A DNA stretch of 62,842 bases from Castellaniella caeni NBRC 101664 (lineage in GTDB: Bacteria; Pseudomonadota; Gammaproteobacteria; Burkholderiales; Burkholderiaceae_B): positions 1 through 62,842 of the forward strand of contig NZ_BCWN01000021.1 of the NCBI RefSeq assembly GCF_001592225.1. The letters run 5' to 3'. Both the position numbers and the translations under genes were made by a program. The notes under the pieces are model-generated. The model saw nothing but the letters and a program-made list of their open reading frames with translations, did not search any database and was not told the origin of the DNA. Numbering within the stretch: position 1 is the first letter of the stretch; each line of letters opens with the position of its first letter. Positions 40,362 to 46,522 of this stretch are shown piece after piece.

Positions 40362-41564
40362 ATGAAAATGAAGCGGTTGTTGCTGTGCATGGCGCTTTCC
40401 GCCGCCCTGCCTCAGTTTGCCGGGGCCGCCGAGCCCCTGCGTATCGGCATCCTCAACGATCAGTCGGGCCTGTATTCCGATTTCGGCGGGGTCACGTCCG
40501 TCACGGCCGCGCAGATGGCCGTGGACGACTTCGGCGGCGAGGTACTGGGGCGCAAGATCGAGGTACTGTCCGCCGACCACCAGAACAAGACCGACGTGGG
40601 CACGTCCATCGCCCGCAAATGGTTCGATCTCGATCACGTCGAGATGATCGGCGATCTCACCAATTCGGCGGTTGCCCTGGCAGTGCAGGGCCTGGCCCAG
40701 GAAAAGGGCAAGATCACCATCGCTTCCGGGCCGTTCTCGGCGGCGCTCACGGGCAAGGCCTGCTCGCCGACGGGCTTTCACTGGGCTTTCGACACCTACG
40801 CGTCTTCGGTGGGCACGGCCACGGGCCTGGTCAAGGAAGGCGCCAAGAGCTGGTTCATCCTGGCTGCCGACTACGCCTATGGCAAGCAGCTGGCCGCCGA
40901 CCTCACCAAGGTGGTCGATAAAAACGGCGGCAAGGTCGTGGGCGAGGTCTTCCACCCGGTAGGCGGCTCCGATTTCGCCTCGTTCCTGCTGCAGGCCCAG
41001 TCGTCCAAGGCGCAGGCCGTGGCGTTGGCCAATGCCGGGGCCGATACCAGCAACAGCATCAAGCAGGCGGCCGAATTCGGTCTCACCAAGGGTGGGCAAA
41101 AGCTCGTGGCGCTGGGCATCGTCATCAGCGACGTCCATGCCCTGGGGCTGGACAAGGCCCAGGGCCTGGTGGCCACCACGCCCTTCTACTGGGATCGCGA
41201 CGATGCCAGCCGCAAGTTCTCGGCGCGCTTTGAAAAGCTCACCCACCGCGAGCCCGGCATGGTGCAGGCCAGCGTGTATTCCTCCACGCTGCACTACCTG
41301 AAGGCGGTCAAGGCGGCGGGCACCACCGATGGCAAGAAGGTGGCCGAAAAGATGCGCGAGCTGCCGGTCGACGACTTCTTCGCCCACAACGGCGTCGTGC
41401 GCAAGGATGGCTGGATGGCACACGACATGTACCTGGTCGAAGTCAAGACCCCGGCAGAATCCAAGGGGCCTTGGGATTACTACAAGGTACTGCGCACGCT
41501 GCCCGCCAGCCTGGTGTCGGTGCCCTTGTCCGAAAGCACCTGCCCGTTGGTGAAACAGGGCTGA
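40362..41564 (+). CDS. Orphan Liv-type ABC transporter binding protein
   Basis: A 400-residue periplasmic binding protein with a signal peptide at about 1-22 (ending GAA). The mature part begins EPLRIGILNDQSGLYSDFGG. It is clearly paralogous to the binding protein at 48560-49771: they share ADHQNK, FLLQAQSS, PWDYY and the ending STCPL. No permease or ATPase is adjacent on its strand, so it presumably shares a membrane complex, most likely that of 46604-51311. Confidence 0.87.
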   Translation: MKMKRLLLCMALSAALPQFAGAAEPLRIGILNDQSGLYSDFGGVTSVTAAQMAVDDFGGEVLGRKIEVLSADHQNKTDVGTSIARKWFDLDHVEMIGDLTNSAVALAVQGLAQEKGKITIASGPFSAALTGKACSPTGFHWAFDTYASSVGTATGLVKEGAKSWFILAADYAYGKQLAADLTKVVDKNGGKVVGEVFHPVGGSDFASFLLQAQSSKAQAVALANAGADTSNSIKQAAEFGLTKGGQKLVALGIVISDVHALGLDKAQGLVATTPFYWDRDDASRKFSARFEKLTHREPGMVQASVYSSTLHYLKAVKAAGTTDGKKVAEKMRELPVDDFFAHNGVVRKDGWMAHDMYLVEVKTPAESKGPWDYYKVLRTLPASLVSVPLSESTCPLVKQG

Positions 41565-41652
41565 TGCATGATCAGGCCGTGGCGCGGCTGTCCAGGCGGG
41601 CCGCCGCGCCGCGTGCGTGGCGGCCCGTGATCCGCGCGTATACTTCCTTTCC

Positions 41653-42048
41653 ATGAAACCCCAAGGCCGTCGTCCGCTTCGGGGCAGCGCCTTTTCCTGG
41701 GCGTGGGCCCTTTGTCTGGCACTGGTGCTGCGCGCACTGGTGCCCGCGGGCTATATGCCCAGTTTCGCCAATGGCGAACTGCCGACGGTCACGCTGTGCG
41801 AGATGCAAGGGCCGGGCCTGGGCGGCATGGTGCACGGCGACCACGCCAATGCCGCCAGCGCCTACGACAATCCGCTGCACTTCCTGGCCCAGTGCCTGGG
41901 TGGGGCGCCGCTGCCCACGGTGGCGTTCCCGGCGTTCATGGCCTTGTTCGGCGGCTTCGTCGCCCTGGTCTTCACGGTGGCCGTCTGGCGCGCCTCCCGG
42001 GTGCGCAGCTCGCCGCTCGGTTCACGCGCACCGCCGTATTTCGCCTAG
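41653..42048 (+). CDS. DUF2946 protein, candidate copper-sensing regulatory upstream ORF
   Basis: A 131-residue DUF2946 protein with two hydrophobic segments (about 14-33 and 88-112). A homologue in Bordetella pertussis (BP2923) is reported as a regulatory upstream ORF: the nascent chain senses copper by a CXXC motif, and a C-terminal RAPP motif arrests translation unless copper is bound, which controls Rho termination before the next gene. Here RAPP is present at residues 125-128, six codons before the stop, but no CXXC is found: the nearest match is C81-L-G-G84. C49, H61, H64 and H76 are other potential ligands. It heads a copper operon, as expected for such a regulator. Confidence 0.8.
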   Translation: MKPQGRRPLRGSAFSWAWALCLALVLRALVPAGYMPSFANGELPTVTLCEMQGPGLGGMVHGDHANAASAYDNPLHFLAQCLGGAPLPTVAFPAFMALFGGFVALVFTVAVWRASRVRSSPLGSRAPPYFA

Positions 42049-42088
42049 TGTGCTGTTCGCGGTCAATCCGTACATTTAAAAGCACACT
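42047..42088. repeat. Inverted repeat at the end of the DUF2946 gene
   Basis: Arms AGTGTGCT (42047-42054) and AGCACACT (42081-42088) flank 26 bases. The first arm overlaps the stop codon of the DUF2946 gene, 10 bases after its RAPP codons. The first ~40 bases also resemble 62776-62815 near the window end, with 17 identical bases (42043-42059 and 62776-62792), so it may be a mobile-element terminus or a regulatory hairpin. The rest of the 150-bp gap before ycnI shows nothing clear. Confidence 0.5.
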
Positions 42089-42198
42089 CGCTGTTTTCTG
42101 TGACTGAAACCAGGCTGGTGGAGCGACCGCTTCATCGGCCCTCGTGGCGTGGCCTTCGTCCGCGCACGAATGCGAAATACGAATACAGGTGAGTTTCG

Positions 42199-42729
42199 AT
42201 GAAAGCATCTTTTGCCTTGGGCGCGCTGGCTGCCGCCCTGTTGTTCATGCCTGCGGTGCAGGCCCACGTGACGCTGCAAACCCGGCAGGCCCCGGTGGGC
42301 AGCTATTACAAGGCCGTGCTGCGCGTGCCGCACGGCTGCCAGGGTTCCGACACGACGGCGTTGCGGGTGCGCATCCCCGAGGGCGTGCTGGGTGTCAAGC
42401 CCCAGCTCAAGCCGGGCTGGACGATCAACATCGTCCAGGGGCCCTACGAGCACACACAGGAATTTCACGGCGCGACGCTCGACCACGGGGTGCGCGAACT
42501 GGTCTGGAAGGGAGGTCGGCTGCCCGACGCCTACTATGACGAGTTCGCCTTCTTCGTCTTTTTGTCGCCCACGCTGAGCGCGGGGCAGCCGCTGTATTTC
42601 CCCGTCGTGCAGACGTGCGAGAAGGGGGTCGAGCGCTGGATCGACACCTCCGGCAAACCCGACGCCGCCGGGCCGGCACCCCACCTTGAACTGACGCGCC
42701 CGGCGGCGCCCGCGGGTCATGCGCGATGA
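42199..42729 (+). CDS. YcnI family copper-binding protein
   Basis: A 176-residue periplasmic protein of the YcnI/DUF1775 family. The signal peptide ends at VQA (residue 22), so the mature protein begins with His23, as needed for the mono-histidine copper site described for YcnI. It overlaps the CopC-CopD gene by 4 bp. Its role is probably copper delivery or buffering in the periplasm. The start ATG has GTGAG-like purines upstream. Confidence 0.86.
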   Translation: MKASFALGALAAALLFMPAVQAHVTLQTRQAPVGSYYKAVLRVPHGCQGSDTTALRVRIPEGVLGVKPQLKPGWTINIVQGPYEHTQEFHGATLDHGVRELVWKGGRLPDAYYDEFAFFVFLSPTLSAGQPLYFPVVQTCEKGVERWIDTSGKPDAAGPAPHLELTRPAAPAGHAR

Positions 42730-44354
42730 GACGGCTGATTCTTTATTTCGTCTGCCTGCTGGCGTGCGCGCCGACTGCCTGGGGACATGCGGCGCTCGTT
42801 GCCGCTTCGCCTGCGCCCGCCGCCGTGCTGCAGCGGGCGCCAAGCGCCATTGTGCTGACCTTCAGTGAACCCGTCGGGGTGACCGCCCTGCGGCTGTTCG
42901 GGCCCGACGGGCAGCAGCTCGTCACGGGGCCGGTCATGGATCACAACCAGGAGGTCAGGATTTCCCTGCCGGGCGGCCACGCCGCGCCGGGCACCTATCT
43001 GCTGAGCTGGCGCGTGACTTCCGCGGACGGTCACCCGGTGGGCGGGACGCTGGATTACTCGGTCGGCCATCCCAGCGCGCTGGGCAGCGTGTCGCAAAGC
43101 GCCTCGCCGGGCTCGCTCAAGCTGGCGATCTGGCTGGCACGCTGGCTGGGCTATCTGTGCCTGTTCGCGGCGCTTGGCGCGGCCCTGTTCCGCCTGATCC
43201 AGCCGCTGGACAGGCAGGCCTGGGTGCGCCCCGCCATCGCCCTGGGCTTCGTGCTGCTGCCCGTGAACCTGGGCCTGCAGGGGCTGGACATGCGCGGCGC
43301 CTCCTGGCCCGCGCTGGCCGAATCCGCCACCTGGGCGCAGGCGCTGTCCAGCACGTATGCCAGCACGCTGGGCCTGCAGGCGCTGGCGCTGTTGGCTGCG
43401 TTGGTCGCGCTGGGCACGGCGCGCTCAGCGATCCTGAAGGCCGCCGCCGTGGCGGGCCTGGGCTGCCTGGGGCTGGCCCTGACCGTCAGCGGTCACGCGG
43501 GCACCGCGCCGCCGCAATGGCTGTCGCGTCCCGCCGTGGTGCTGCACGTCATGATGGCGGTGGTCTGGGTGGGCATGCTCGTGCCGCTGGCGCGGGCCCT
43601 GTCGCGTGGGCGCGTCCGTGCCGCAGCGCCAGCGGGCCGCGTGTCGGCTGCCGCCGAGCCGATGCCGCTGGCGGCCTTTTCGCGCTGGATCGTCCCCGCC
43701 GTCGCGCTGCTGGTGCTCAGTGGCCTGACGCTGGCCCGCTTGCAGCTCGATGGCCCCGGCGACCTGTGGCGCACGGCGTATGGCCGGGTGCTGCTTGCCA
43801 AGCTCACGCTGGTGGGCTTGCTGCTGTGTCTGGCGGCCTATAACCGCTGGGGGCTGACGCGCGCGGCGCTGGCCGGGGAACCAGCGGCGCGTCGGCGGCT
43901 GAGGGCCGCCATCCGCCTGGAGGTGGTGCTGGCGGTGCTGATCCTCTCGGTCGTCGCGCTGTGGCGCTTCACCCCGCCGCCGCGCACGGCGGACATGGCG
44001 GACATGGCGGGCATGGCGCGGATGACCGCGCCGCAGCCCGTGGAGCTGGCCGACGAGCGGCTGCGGGCGCGTGTCACGTCGCTGGCCGATGGTTGGCACA
44101 TCCAGCTGTTCAAGCCCGACGGTGCGCCGTTCGAGGCCCAGGGCGTGACCCTGTCCCTGAGCCATGCGGCGGGCGGCATCGAGCCGCTCAGCCGTGCCGC
44201 CAGCCGCCAGGCCGACGGCAGCTGGCTGGCCGCCATCCCACCGCTGTCAGCCCAGGCCTCGTGGCAAATCACGGTGACGGTACTGGTCGATGACTTCGAT
44301 GAAATCACGCTGCAGACGGCGCCGCCCGTCGTGCAGGAAAGGAATGGATCATGA
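42726..44354 (+). CDS. CopC-CopD fusion copper protein
   Basis: A 542-residue fusion. A signal peptide (1-20, ending AWG) precedes a CopC domain to about residue 125; the mature N terminus is His21, followed by a second conserved site, DGHPVGG, matching the Cu(II) site of CopC. The remainder is a CopD domain with about eight membrane helices, then a periplasmic tail with a Met-rich stretch (DMADMAGMARM, near 422-434) suited to Cu(I). It would carry copper across the inner membrane. Overlaps with ycnI and with the receptor gene, 4 bp each, show one operon. Confidence 0.9.
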   Translation: MRRLILYFVCLLACAPTAWGHAALVAASPAPAAVLQRAPSAIVLTFSEPVGVTALRLFGPDGQQLVTGPVMDHNQEVRISLPGGHAAPGTYLLSWRVTSADGHPVGGTLDYSVGHPSALGSVSQSASPGSLKLAIWLARWLGYLCLFAALGAALFRLIQPLDRQAWVRPAIALGFVLLPVNLGLQGLDMRGASWPALAESATWAQALSSTYASTLGLQALALLAALVALGTARSAILKAAAVAGLGCLGLALTVSGHAGTAPPQWLSRPAVVLHVMMAVVWVGMLVPLARALSRGRVRAAAPAGRVSAAAEPMPLAAFSRWIVPAVALLVLSGLTLARLQLDGPGDLWRTAYGRVLLAKLTLVGLLLCLAAYNRWGLTRAALAGEPAARRRLRAAIRLEVVLAVLILSVVALWRFTPPPRTADMADMAGMARMTAPQPVELADERLRARVTSLADGWHIQLFKPDGAPFEAQGVTLSLSHAAGGIEPLSRAASRQADGSWLAAIPPLSAQASWQITVTVLVDDFDEITLQTAPPVVQERNGS

Positions 44355-46522
44355 GCAAGTTTGTGTCTGTATTGCGCTTTGCTCCCTGGGCAGGCCGGGC
44401 GTGGTGGTGGCTTGGCTCCGCCGTGGCGCTGGCGCTGGGGGTGGCGGAGCCATCGTCCGCGCAGGCGGTGTCGGTCGGGACGTCGTCAGCCGCGGGCAGC
44501 CAGCCGACGCCCGCCCAGCTGGCGCCGATCGAAGTGAGCGCCACCCCTGATGACGCCGATGTCCGGCTCGAACAGCGCCTGACCCCCGGTGCCGTACACG
44601 TCGTCGATGGTGATTCTTTGTACCAGCGTCCGGTCAGCAACCTCAGTGGCGCCCTGCGCTACGTACCCGGAGTGATGGCCGAGAGCAATACCGGGGGCGA
44701 CGATCAGGTGCTGTCCATCCGCGGCTCGAACCTGAGCGCGCTCAGTTACGACAACGGCGGCGTGGCCCTGTTCCAGGATGGCCTGCCGGTGTCGGCGGCG
44801 GACGGCAACAACCATAATCGCCTGATCGATCCCCTGGGGGCCAGCGAGTTCATCGTGGCCAACGGCGCCAATGCGCTGACCTATGGCGCCAGCGAGCTGG
44901 GTGGCGCCATCGACGCCATTTCGCGCACGGCCAGAAACAGCGATCCGACGCAAATCTACCTGAGCGCGGGCGGCCACGGTCTGTTCAATGGCCAGCTCAG
45001 CGTAGGCGGCGTGGCAGACTCGCTGGATGGCCTGCTGACGCTGGAGAACAAGCATTTCGATGGCTATCGGCAGCACAGCGGGCTTGAGCGCACGGGTGTG
45101 TCAGGCAACGTCGGCTTGCGCGTGTCCGACCGGCTGCGCCTGCGGCTGTTCGCCTCGCACGTCGATAGCCGCCAGAAGCTGGCCGGTGCGCTGACGCGCT
45201 CGGAATTCGAGCAAGACCCGCGTCAGGCCGACCCCTCGGCGGCGCTGGGCGATCACGCCGTGGATGTCAAGACGGATCGGGTGGCGCTCAAGGGTGATTG
45301 GGACATCGATGCCCGCAGCCGCCTGGAATTTGGCCTTTCGTACGAGGTGCAGCACCTGTACCACCCCATCGTGGACGTGTTCAATTTCGCCACCACACCC
45401 CCCGCGCATTATTTCAGCCTGCTGGTCGATACGCGGCAGCAGACGGTGGGCGGGATGCTGCGCTACCACCTCAGGGCCGGCAATCACGAGCTGCTGGCGG
45501 GCCTCAGCCTGGCGCAGACGAGCAACAAGGGCGGCAACTACGCCAATGATGGCGGCCAGCGCGGTACGCGGATGACCGCCATCGACCAGCAGTCCGACAA
45601 CGCCACGCTGACGCTGATGGATCGCTGGCATATCGCGCCGCGCTGGACGCTGGTCTACGGCGCGCAGGGCGTGGCTACCTCGCGCGATTCGCGCTCCACG
45701 ACGCTGTCCAGCGGCGACCAGCGGCGCCAGGATGCCACGTATTCTGCCGTGAATCCGCGCCTGGGGCTCATTTACGCGTTGAACCGGGACAGCGAGCTGT
45801 TTGCCAACGTCAGCCGGGTGTATCAGGCGCCCAACAATTACGATCTGGACAACGACGTGCGCCAGGACGATGCGGTGTTGCGCGCCATGCATGGGGTGTC
45901 CTATGAGATCGGCACGCGCGGCCAGGGGGCGCTGCCGTTTGCCGCGGCTACCGGGCGCTGGAGTCTGTCGCTCTATCATGCGGACATCCGCAATGAGATT
46001 CTGTCGGTGGACAACCCCGCCAAACCCGGCAGCATGCTGGCGACCAACTACGGCAAGACCGTGCACGAGGGCATCGAGGCTCTGGGCAGCGCGAGCTTTC
46101 CGCTGGCGGGCACGCCGCACCGCATCGAGCCGCTGGTCAGCGCCACCTACCAGCGCTTCCGGTTCAAGGACGACCCAGCGTTCGGCAACAACCGGCTGCC
46201 GTCGGCACCCAGCTACATCGTCCACGGCGAGGTGATGTACCGCCACCAGACCACGGGCTTTTATGCCGGGCCCACCTTCGATCTCGTCGGGTCGCGCTAC
46301 GCCGACATGGCCAATACCTATCGTGTCGGCGCCTACCAGTTGCTGGGGCTGCGCGCGGGCGTCGAGCGTGATCGCTGGGATCTGTATGCCGAACTCAGCA
46401 ATCTGACCGACAAGAAGTACGTCAGTGCTGTGACCGTGCTGACGCAGGCCGATGCCGACGCCCGGGTGCTGAATCCGGGCGCGCCCCGTTCGATTTTCGT
46501 GGGGGGCCGTTTCCGCTATTGA
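44351..46522 (+). CDS. TonB-dependent outer-membrane receptor, likely copper uptake
   Basis: A 723-residue TonB-dependent receptor. A signal sequence ends near residue 38, a TonB-box-like APIEVSA follows near 57-63, then the plug domain (to about 190; LRYVPGV, IRGSNLSALSYDNGG) and a 22-strand-type barrel ending in aromatic residues (FRY). Its place after the DUF2946, YcnI and CopC-CopD genes points to copper or a copper chelate as substrate. It is in the same order of operon parts as seen with bfrG in Bordetella. A strong hairpin follows. Confidence 0.88.
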   Translation: MSKFVSVLRFAPWAGRAWWWLGSAVALALGVAEPSSAQAVSVGTSSAAGSQPTPAQLAPIEVSATPDDADVRLEQRLTPGAVHVVDGDSLYQRPVSNLSGALRYVPGVMAESNTGGDDQVLSIRGSNLSALSYDNGGVALFQDGLPVSAADGNNHNRLIDPLGASEFIVANGANALTYGASELGGAIDAISRTARNSDPTQIYLSAGGHGLFNGQLSVGGVADSLDGLLTLENKHFDGYRQHSGLERTGVSGNVGLRVSDRLRLRLFASHVDSRQKLAGALTRSEFEQDPRQADPSAALGDHAVDVKTDRVALKGDWDIDARSRLEFGLSYEVQHLYHPIVDVFNFATTPPAHYFSLLVDTRQQTVGGMLRYHLRAGNHELLAGLSLAQTSNKGGNYANDGGQRGTRMTAIDQQSDNATLTLMDRWHIAPRWTLVYGAQGVATSRDSRSTTLSSGDQRRQDATYSAVNPRLGLIYALNRDSELFANVSRVYQAPNNYDLDNDVRQDDAVLRAMHGVSYEIGTRGQGALPFAAATGRWSLSLYHADIRNEILSVDNPAKPGSMLATNYGKTVHEGIEALGSASFPLAGTPHRIEPLVSATYQRFRFKDDPAFGNNRLPSAPSYIVHGEVMYRHQTTGFYAGPTFDLVGSRYADMANTYRVGAYQLLGLRAGVERDRWDLYAELSNLTDKKYVSAVTVLTQADADARVLNPGAPRSIFVGGRFRY

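Follow-up and report, generated by a model that had tools for sequence, protein, structure and literature searches.

Does a copper leader gene that lacks both cysteines of its sensor motif still sense metal, and how might its translation be coupled to the genes behind it? These questions are raised by a DUF2946 gene in a 62,842-nucleotide stretch of Castellaniella caeni NBRC 101664 DNA (contig NZ_BCWN01000021.1; the whole stretch is called the window below). The closest described system, CruR (Bp2923) of B. pertussis, has been portrayed as an attenuator that works through Rho and whose CXXC is invariant, and its authors inferred fresh translation initiation at the next gene (PMC9426467), and published toeprints suggest that ribosomes stall on it with the two proline codons of its RAPP motif in the P and A sites (PMC12992588). 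The parts of the Castellaniella locus are as follows.

41653..42048, + strand: leader ORF, DUF2946 (CruR-like), 131 amino acids, ATG start (Pfam PF11162)
41680..41739, + strand: N-terminal hydrophobic helix, residues 10-29 (AlphaFold helix, pLDDT about 87; sequence)
41797..41799, + strand: codon of C49, the "semi-conserved" Cys of the family (survey rows, MAFFT)
41869..41880, + strand: N73-P-L-H76, the apparent CXXC column with both cysteines replaced (ortholog alignment, MAFFT, spacing of 48)
41893..41895, + strand: codon of C81, in the His column of same-genus orthologs (alignments)
42025..42036, + strand: RAPP arrest motif, residues 125-128, in a PLGSRAPP context (sequence, MAFFT)
42035..42044, + strand: 5' RNA arm CGUAUUUCGC, starting in the second Pro codon of RAPP (RNA pairing)
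42047..42088, + strand: local inverted repeat at the leader stop codon, arms 42047-42057 and 42078-42088 (repeat search)
42172..42181, + strand: 3' RNA arm GCGAAAUACG, -27 to -18 from the ycnI ATG (RNA pairing)
42187..42193, + strand: putative Shine-Dalgarno AGGTGAG of ycnI (sequence)
42199..42729, + strand: ycnI-like gene (DUF1775; Pfam, 145.7 bits)
42726..44354, + strand: fused copC-copD gene (Pfam CopC and CopD)
44351..46522, + strand: TonB-dependent receptor gene (Pfam Plug and beta-barrel)

Most of what the sequence-only reading had said of the gene itself holds. The match to PF11162 (27.8 bits, curated cut-off 23.7) confirms a DUF2946 gene, the protein ends in GSRAPPYFA with RAPP at residues 125-128, C49, H61, H64, H76 and C81 are all present in the translation as stated, and no CXXC is found. 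The gene had been taken to run from 41653 to 42198; the start stands, and the ATG agrees with the starts of same-genus orthologs in the alignments (the ORF list also allows this frame to begin at a GTG at 41617), but the ORF stops at 42048 and the remainder is a 150-nt intergenic region. Behind this region ycnI, copC-copD (which overlaps ycnI by 4 nt) and the TonB-dependent receptor gene follow on the same strand, and the gene upstream of the leader encodes a periplasmic binding protein (Pfam Peripla_BP_6). Judged by gene order, the leader is the first gene of a putative copper operon with a long intergenic region, and PF11162, RAPP and these neighbours together support an arrest-type copper leader without CXXC. 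Residues 10-29 are probably an export signal, and arrest at RAPP would be expected by analogy with CruR (PMC9426467, PMC12992588). The AlphaFold model of the leader is weak overall (pTM 0.30), so reading a metal site from it was rejected; it places a second hydrophobic helix at residues 91-114 (41923-41994), between sensor and RAPP, which would lie mostly within the ribosome tunnel when the stall occurs, and similar stretches are present in some other leaders. The inverted repeat at the stop codon has 11-nt arms that are 91% complementary with 20 nt between them, and none stood out by eye in folds of three same-genus orthologs. We found no Rfam match up to an E value of 0.1 in 41500-42400, no terminator-like or sigma-70-like site in 41500-42250, and no named relative of the leader in the genome contigs or plasmids searched; the one relative that a CopC-CopD query brought up is distant and comes from a MAG labelled Aeromicrobium.

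The CXXC had been expected at C81-L-G-G84, and this placement did not survive comparison with orthologs. The same-genus proteins align with the leader without gaps (ACPLCLLAQHAGGPPLP from locus L005 and ASPLCLLVQHAGGSPLP from L004 against DNPLHFLAQCLGGAPLP in the window), as do stretches from orthologs with the same ycnI-copCD order (CPLCLLAQHAGGPPLP from genome G001, SPLCLLVQHAGGSPLP from G004 and CPLCLFAHHASGSPLP from G005 against NPLHFLAQCLGGAPLP in the window), and they put N73-P-L-H76 in the motif column. In a MAFFT alignment of 40 sequences, whose rows were read by eye, the N73 column is a nearly invariant Cys (38/40) and the C49 column an invariant one (40/40). Spacing points the same way: the motif lies 42-49 residues from RAPP in 151 CXXC proteins and 44-47 in 36 proteins of the CxxG type, and the distance is 48 from NPLH in the window leader and 48 and 49 in the orthologs, whereas from CLGG it is 40, outside both ranges. 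A profile alignment of all relatives does place C81 in the first-Cys column, with a gap, and we set that register aside because the gap-free ortholog alignment, MAFFT and the spacing all favor NPLH. C81 was rejected as the first Cys of the motif (spacing 40) and likewise as the second (spacing 43 by our count), either choice requiring gaps against orthologs that align without them. On these alignments the true CXXC column of the leader is N73-P-L-H76, with both cysteines replaced (by N73 and H76), and C81 occupies the column where same-genus orthologs carry His; the change in the window is thus from C-x2-C-x4-H to N-x2-H-x4-C with C49 kept.

To judge how unusual this is we surveyed 230 DUF2946 ORFs from family-, order- and phylum-level relatives (218 unique proteins). 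Among the 224 loci scanned, three had no leader (L051; L091, which was unused; and L111, where Pfam matched and our own profile did not), and the tree has 217 rows, L106, whose motif is CLYC, having been dropped after the profile misaligned it and the window row having been placed by hand. The sample is uneven, being a chosen part of the matches fetched, and a search with the window's own protein supplied 17 of the relatives; 14 of the 44 proteins with an incomplete CXXC come from those loci, and the window's family is over-sampled. CXXC is complete in 173/217 relatives and incomplete, mostly in a CxxG-like form, in 44/217 (37 at family level, 7 at order or phylum level). The first Cys alone is kept in 42/217 (many CPFG-like, a few with further cysteines nearby), the second alone in 1/217 (the G004 ortholog), and neither in 1/217, the window leader, which is also the only surveyed protein with the N-x2-H-x4-C ligand arrangement. 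The rarity implied by the earlier description therefore applies to the absence of both cysteines and not to an incomplete motif as such. Nor is a CXXC-less leader new, since in the 29 clusters of CutF-like leaders of Oztürk et al. 2023 (PMC9973294) the metal sites are reported to consist of Cys, of His (His-only clusters included) or of both. B. pertussis CruR itself was not recognised among the surveyed leaders by length and motif positions. Three of the surveyed leaders (L119, L120 and L121) have CC-x-x-G-C (e.g. HCCAAGC) in place of CXXC, and the ORFs behind them look by eye like OprC-type receptors.

Leaders without CXXC tend to stand before copper-type genes. The next genes of 41 such leaders are TonB receptors (11), PCuAC (9), SCO1 (8), YcnI (4), CopCD (1) and other genes (8), so 33/41 precede one of the named classes, TonB receptors being counted as copper-type regardless of ligand. 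The corresponding figure for CXXC leaders, 75/153 with 78 "other" (by eye, many of these resemble receptor or PepSY proteins), cannot fairly be set against this, because the 12 reference proteins that define the classes (6 named by Pfam and 6 by eye) came from the window and the CXXC-less loci. The C49 column holds Cys in 44/44 CXXC-incomplete rows and in 145/173 CXXC rows (Fisher p 0.0018). A "two-cysteine rule", under which CXXC is incomplete only where the C49 column is Cys, has no exception in the 217 rows, yet is not established, because the tree gives 2 to 5 supported independent pairs and a sign test a median p of 1.

What the leader's translation could do to the next gene is suggested by an RNA arm that overlaps the stall site and had escaped the sequence-only reading. 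Nucleotides 42035-42044 are perfectly complementary over 10 bp to 42172-42181, which adjoin the upstream side of the ycnI Shine-Dalgarno. Predicted pair probabilities are 0.94-1.00 in four RNA contexts, and the duplex energy of -22.1 kcal/mol compares with an average of -12.6 for shuffles (p 0.005). Because CruR toeprints suggest that the Pro codons occupy the P and A sites, a stall at RAPP should leave the 5' arm covered by the ribosome. Masking that arm lowers the computed cost of opening -30 to +15 around the ycnI start by 7.0 kcal/mol (0.5% of arm shuffles cost as much) and that of -18 to +9 by 2.0 kcal/mol, which is not significant (14.5% of arm shuffles), and it brings no gain for -14 to +3 (-0.8), the Shine-Dalgarno core lying outside the helix. 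In computation, then, the stall-site arm pairs with the next ribosome-binding region, as in SecM-type systems, and leaves the Shine-Dalgarno core uncovered. Same-genus orthologs show related pairing: a shorter version of the arm in G001 (p 0.008); in G004, codons past RAPP that pair with the Shine-Dalgarno itself (TGCCTTTCA with TGAAAGGCA, p 0.021), the next-gene start having been placed by hand there since the script had put it, wrongly, 775 nt away; and in G005, which has RGAPP, a pairing with p 0.005 when a wider region is used and a weak one (-4.8) with a narrower region.

The arm is not peculiar to this genus. Pairing was tested in 166 leaders with a placed next gene, of which 161 do not overlap it and 127 remain after redundancy removal; next-gene starts were chosen by script, and that of G004 is at least one wrong choice. 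In the 161 leaders the stretch of 24 nt that begins at the second Pro codon outdoes dinucleotide shuffles in pairing with the ribosome-binding site of the next gene (mean z -1.33), z falling below -1.7 in 40% as against 4% and 5% in two internal controls. In the 127 non-redundant leaders the pairing energy is -13.07 kcal/mol against -9.61 with swapped partners (z -13.4, 0/1000 permutations; 0/2000 in a separate permutation run). The signal is sharply placed. In a scan with 16-nt windows from -66 to +66 around the second Pro codon, the strongest values come at offsets 0 (z -10.0) and +6 (z -12.1). All other offsets give z from -4.0 to 0.7; the values next to the peak are -3.9 and -4.0, and the -3.4 at offset -24 is unexplained. 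With 8-nt windows the signal is seen to span about 0 to +20. On the side of the next gene the strongest windows begin at -22 (z -11.2) and -16 (z -13.0) relative to its start, and the peak covers about -22 to 0.

The pairing recurs in every subset of leaders that we separated: family-level loci (n=74, z -10.5) and order plus phylum loci (n=53, z -9.3), leaders with CXXC (n=93, z -11.8) and without it (n=34, z -6.4; n=33 and -6.5 when the window is left out), and leaders with intergenic regions of at least 130 nt (n=47, z -6.0). Helices of at least 8 bp are found in 26/127 leaders where 4.7 are expected. By comparison, 79 ordinary gene pairs from a same-genus genome, made of ORFs picked by length with no gene caller, gave z of 0.0 to -2.8 at seven offsets and were at most 0.85 kcal/mol better than swapped partners, against 2.56 in leaders. 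When the part that a stalled ribosome would cover is hidden, the mean opening cost of the next ribosome-binding site falls from 11.4 to 8.8 kcal/mol in 150 of the 161 leaders (those with the farthest next genes being left out), and shuffling the arm gives 9.1; the gain exceeds 2 kcal/mol in 76/150, and its mean is 2.63 kcal/mol in CXXC-less leaders (n=36) and 2.67 in CXXC leaders (n=114). Arm pairing is not in itself proof of a stall at RAPP, since pairing of the same strength is seen in a set of 18 leaders that have RDPP, RASP, GPP or other endings in place of R[AGC]PP (z -4.8 for the set, as against a mean z of -4.35 when RAPP leaders are subsampled to 18), and the RGAPP leader of G005 also pairs in one test. 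Six leaders ending in RASP or RDPP (L132, L133, L136, L029, L056 and L173) still pair with the next ribosome-binding site, and such leaders may use stall motifs other than RAPP.

We tentatively favor, at somewhat less than even probability, the reading that a CruR-like leader here regulates the copper operon by its own translation, through the arm, and that a rebuilt metal site may still sense a metal, probably copper. The ribosome would stall while P127 occupies the P site and P128 the A site, as RAPP and the published CruR toeprint suggest, and would cover 42035-42044; these could then not pair with 42172-42181, and ycnI would be translated. Once the stall was relieved the helix would form and expression would drop. 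In published CruR work the operon is on while the ribosome is stalled, and relief normally needs metal (copper) at CXXC; here C49, H76 and C81, perhaps with H61 and H64, would form the site, and metal, probably copper, would still be sensed with altered affinity or specificity. Intact RAPP, its PLGS context, the ORF, C49 and the ycnI/copC-copD/TonB receptor order all count for an arrest leader, and from its sequence the gene is probably CruR-like and of the arrest type with an altered sensor. We call it CruR-like, and not CruR, because the CXXC that Roy et al. described as invariant is replaced by NPLH.

The main rival is a leader with a dead sensor that stalls at any copper level and leaves the operon constitutively on, because the mutants of Roy et al. 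that lack CXXC and keep RAPP have the operon on and poorly responsive. In B. pertussis, C90S+C93S keeps bfrG expression with copper control strongly impaired, and C51S, which removes the semi-conserved Cys, leaves control intact (PMC9426467); the window leader, its row placed by hand, is alone among 217 in having neither CXXC cysteine. Such a leader is a possibility of real weight, if a minority one. Against it, C49 is retained, a Cys now stands at the neighboring His column, and a His has taken the place of the second Cys; moreover, 42/217 relatives have the first motif Cys only and 33/41 CXXC-less leaders head copper-type genes, and this suggests that leaders do not strictly require the complete motif. 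We place altered metal sensing slightly ahead of constitutive stalling because Cys and His have been rearranged within the same nine residues and not lost, and because relatives with one motif Cys persist at copper operons. That the motifs are simply drifting in a decaying leader, control of the operon being no longer selected, would fit the genus, where leaders look unstable: ycnI is present in 6/10 genomes, and among the four syntenic leaders both motifs are kept only in G001, G004 having SPLC, G005 CPLC with RGAPP, and the window NPLH with RAPP. No RAPP-type leader was found upstream of ycnI in G003 or G007, or ahead of a second ycnI in the window's own genome. Decay is nevertheless improbable, as RAPP, PLGS, C49, the ORF and a perfect 10-bp arm have all been kept. 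The leader of G005 (L054), with CXXC kept and RAPP changed, is a mirror image of that in the window.

Two further rivals concern the output and the signal. Rho-dependent termination, which experiments with bicyclomycin and in vitro transcription established for CruR (PMC9426467), could be the output here as well, with the RNA helix secondary or functionally absent, and C>G stretches centered at 41639-41699, 41849-41909 and 41984-42074 (peak +14 points) would suit it; the excess is modest, however (window-wide mean -3.7, sd 8.2), and Rho alone does not explain why the surveyed leaders pair with the next ribosome-binding site at so exact a position. We consider this account less likely than not; the two outputs could coexist. 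A switch of signal, for instance to export or membrane insertion sensed through helix 91-114, is improbable: the AlphaFold helix and a maximal 19-residue hydropathy of 2.23 between sensor and RAPP speak for it, but linkers above 1.6 also occur in 31/151 CXXC and 9/36 CxxG-type proteins, and what follows the leader is a set of copper genes and no Sec or YidC gene.

Comparison with known systems places the leader nearest to CruR. Both are DUF2946 proteins with a C-terminal RAPP and the semi-conserved Cys, each opens a copper operon (a putative one in the window) that includes a TonB receptor gene, with intergenic regions of 162 nt in B. pertussis and 150 nt here (PMC9426467), and Roy et al. list YcnI and CopC among the genes behind CruR homologs (PMC9426467). 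By its published description CruR differs in having CXXC where the window has NPLH plus a Cys at the following His column, and in a motif-to-RAPP distance of 45 instead of 48 (PMC9426467); the 48 of the window leader falls within the range of 42-49 in our survey. We found no pairing of its stall site with the next ribosome-binding site described in the consulted text of that paper, whereas it is computed here; a term search of the paper gave no mention of Shine-Dalgarno or hairpin (PMC9426467), and one of the 2025 RAPP paper for Shine-Dalgarno/hairpin-type terms gave none either. In the open-licence main texts searched no stall-site arm was found described for CruR or across DUF2946, which does not prove that none exists. 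Stems that hide a Shine-Dalgarno have been described for one gene, CutF (PMC9973294), and for Sec/YidC arrest peptides (PMC10987492). CutF of Rhodobacter capsulatus is likewise a DUF2946-like exported leader with an RNA stem over the next Shine-Dalgarno, but it has CxxxC (absent from the window leader), a different proline-rich end, and expression that copper raises, and its stem is described as intergenic whereas the 5' arm in the window begins in the RAPP codons (PMC9973294). SecM, MifM, VemP and the RAPP-type Sec/YidC arrest peptides share the disruption by a stall of a stem that hides the Shine-Dalgarno, and a RAPP-like motif, but their signal is export or insertion and not metal (PMC10987492). 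Leaders of the RAPP/RGPP type ahead of metal genes have been reported upstream of YcnI, PCuAC and TonB-receptor genes, and for SLIV_16130 of S. lividans Cys/His sites are predicted, without being called CXXC (PMC12992588).

More broadly, members of the DUF2946 family may be translational metal switches of the SecM type, in which the end of RAPP, together with a few nucleotides behind it, doubles as an arm against the next ribosome-binding site, with the window holding a natural sensor swap of altered affinity or specificity; this combined proposal is speculative, and we give it distinctly less than even probability. If it is true, metal binding by the nascent chain directly sets translation of the next gene, even across long intergenic regions; the arm pairing in relatives across the phylum suggests how initiation at that gene could be controlled, and natural CXXC-less members, of which the window leader is the most extreme in our survey, offer a way to learn which nascent-chain residues bind metal.

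The genome that contains the window has a second DUF2946 leader, at 26496-26804 of contig C13 (G000; L001, L062), in which the CXXC is kept (HCLLC) and RCPP replaces RAPP. It precedes a 676-amino-acid ORF that is receptor-like by eye, and masking its arm cuts the opening cost of the next ribosome-binding site from 9.2 to 5.4. The second ycnI of this genome lies on contig C12 at 88924-89361 (L231) and is followed by an ORF that appears by eye to be CopC-like.
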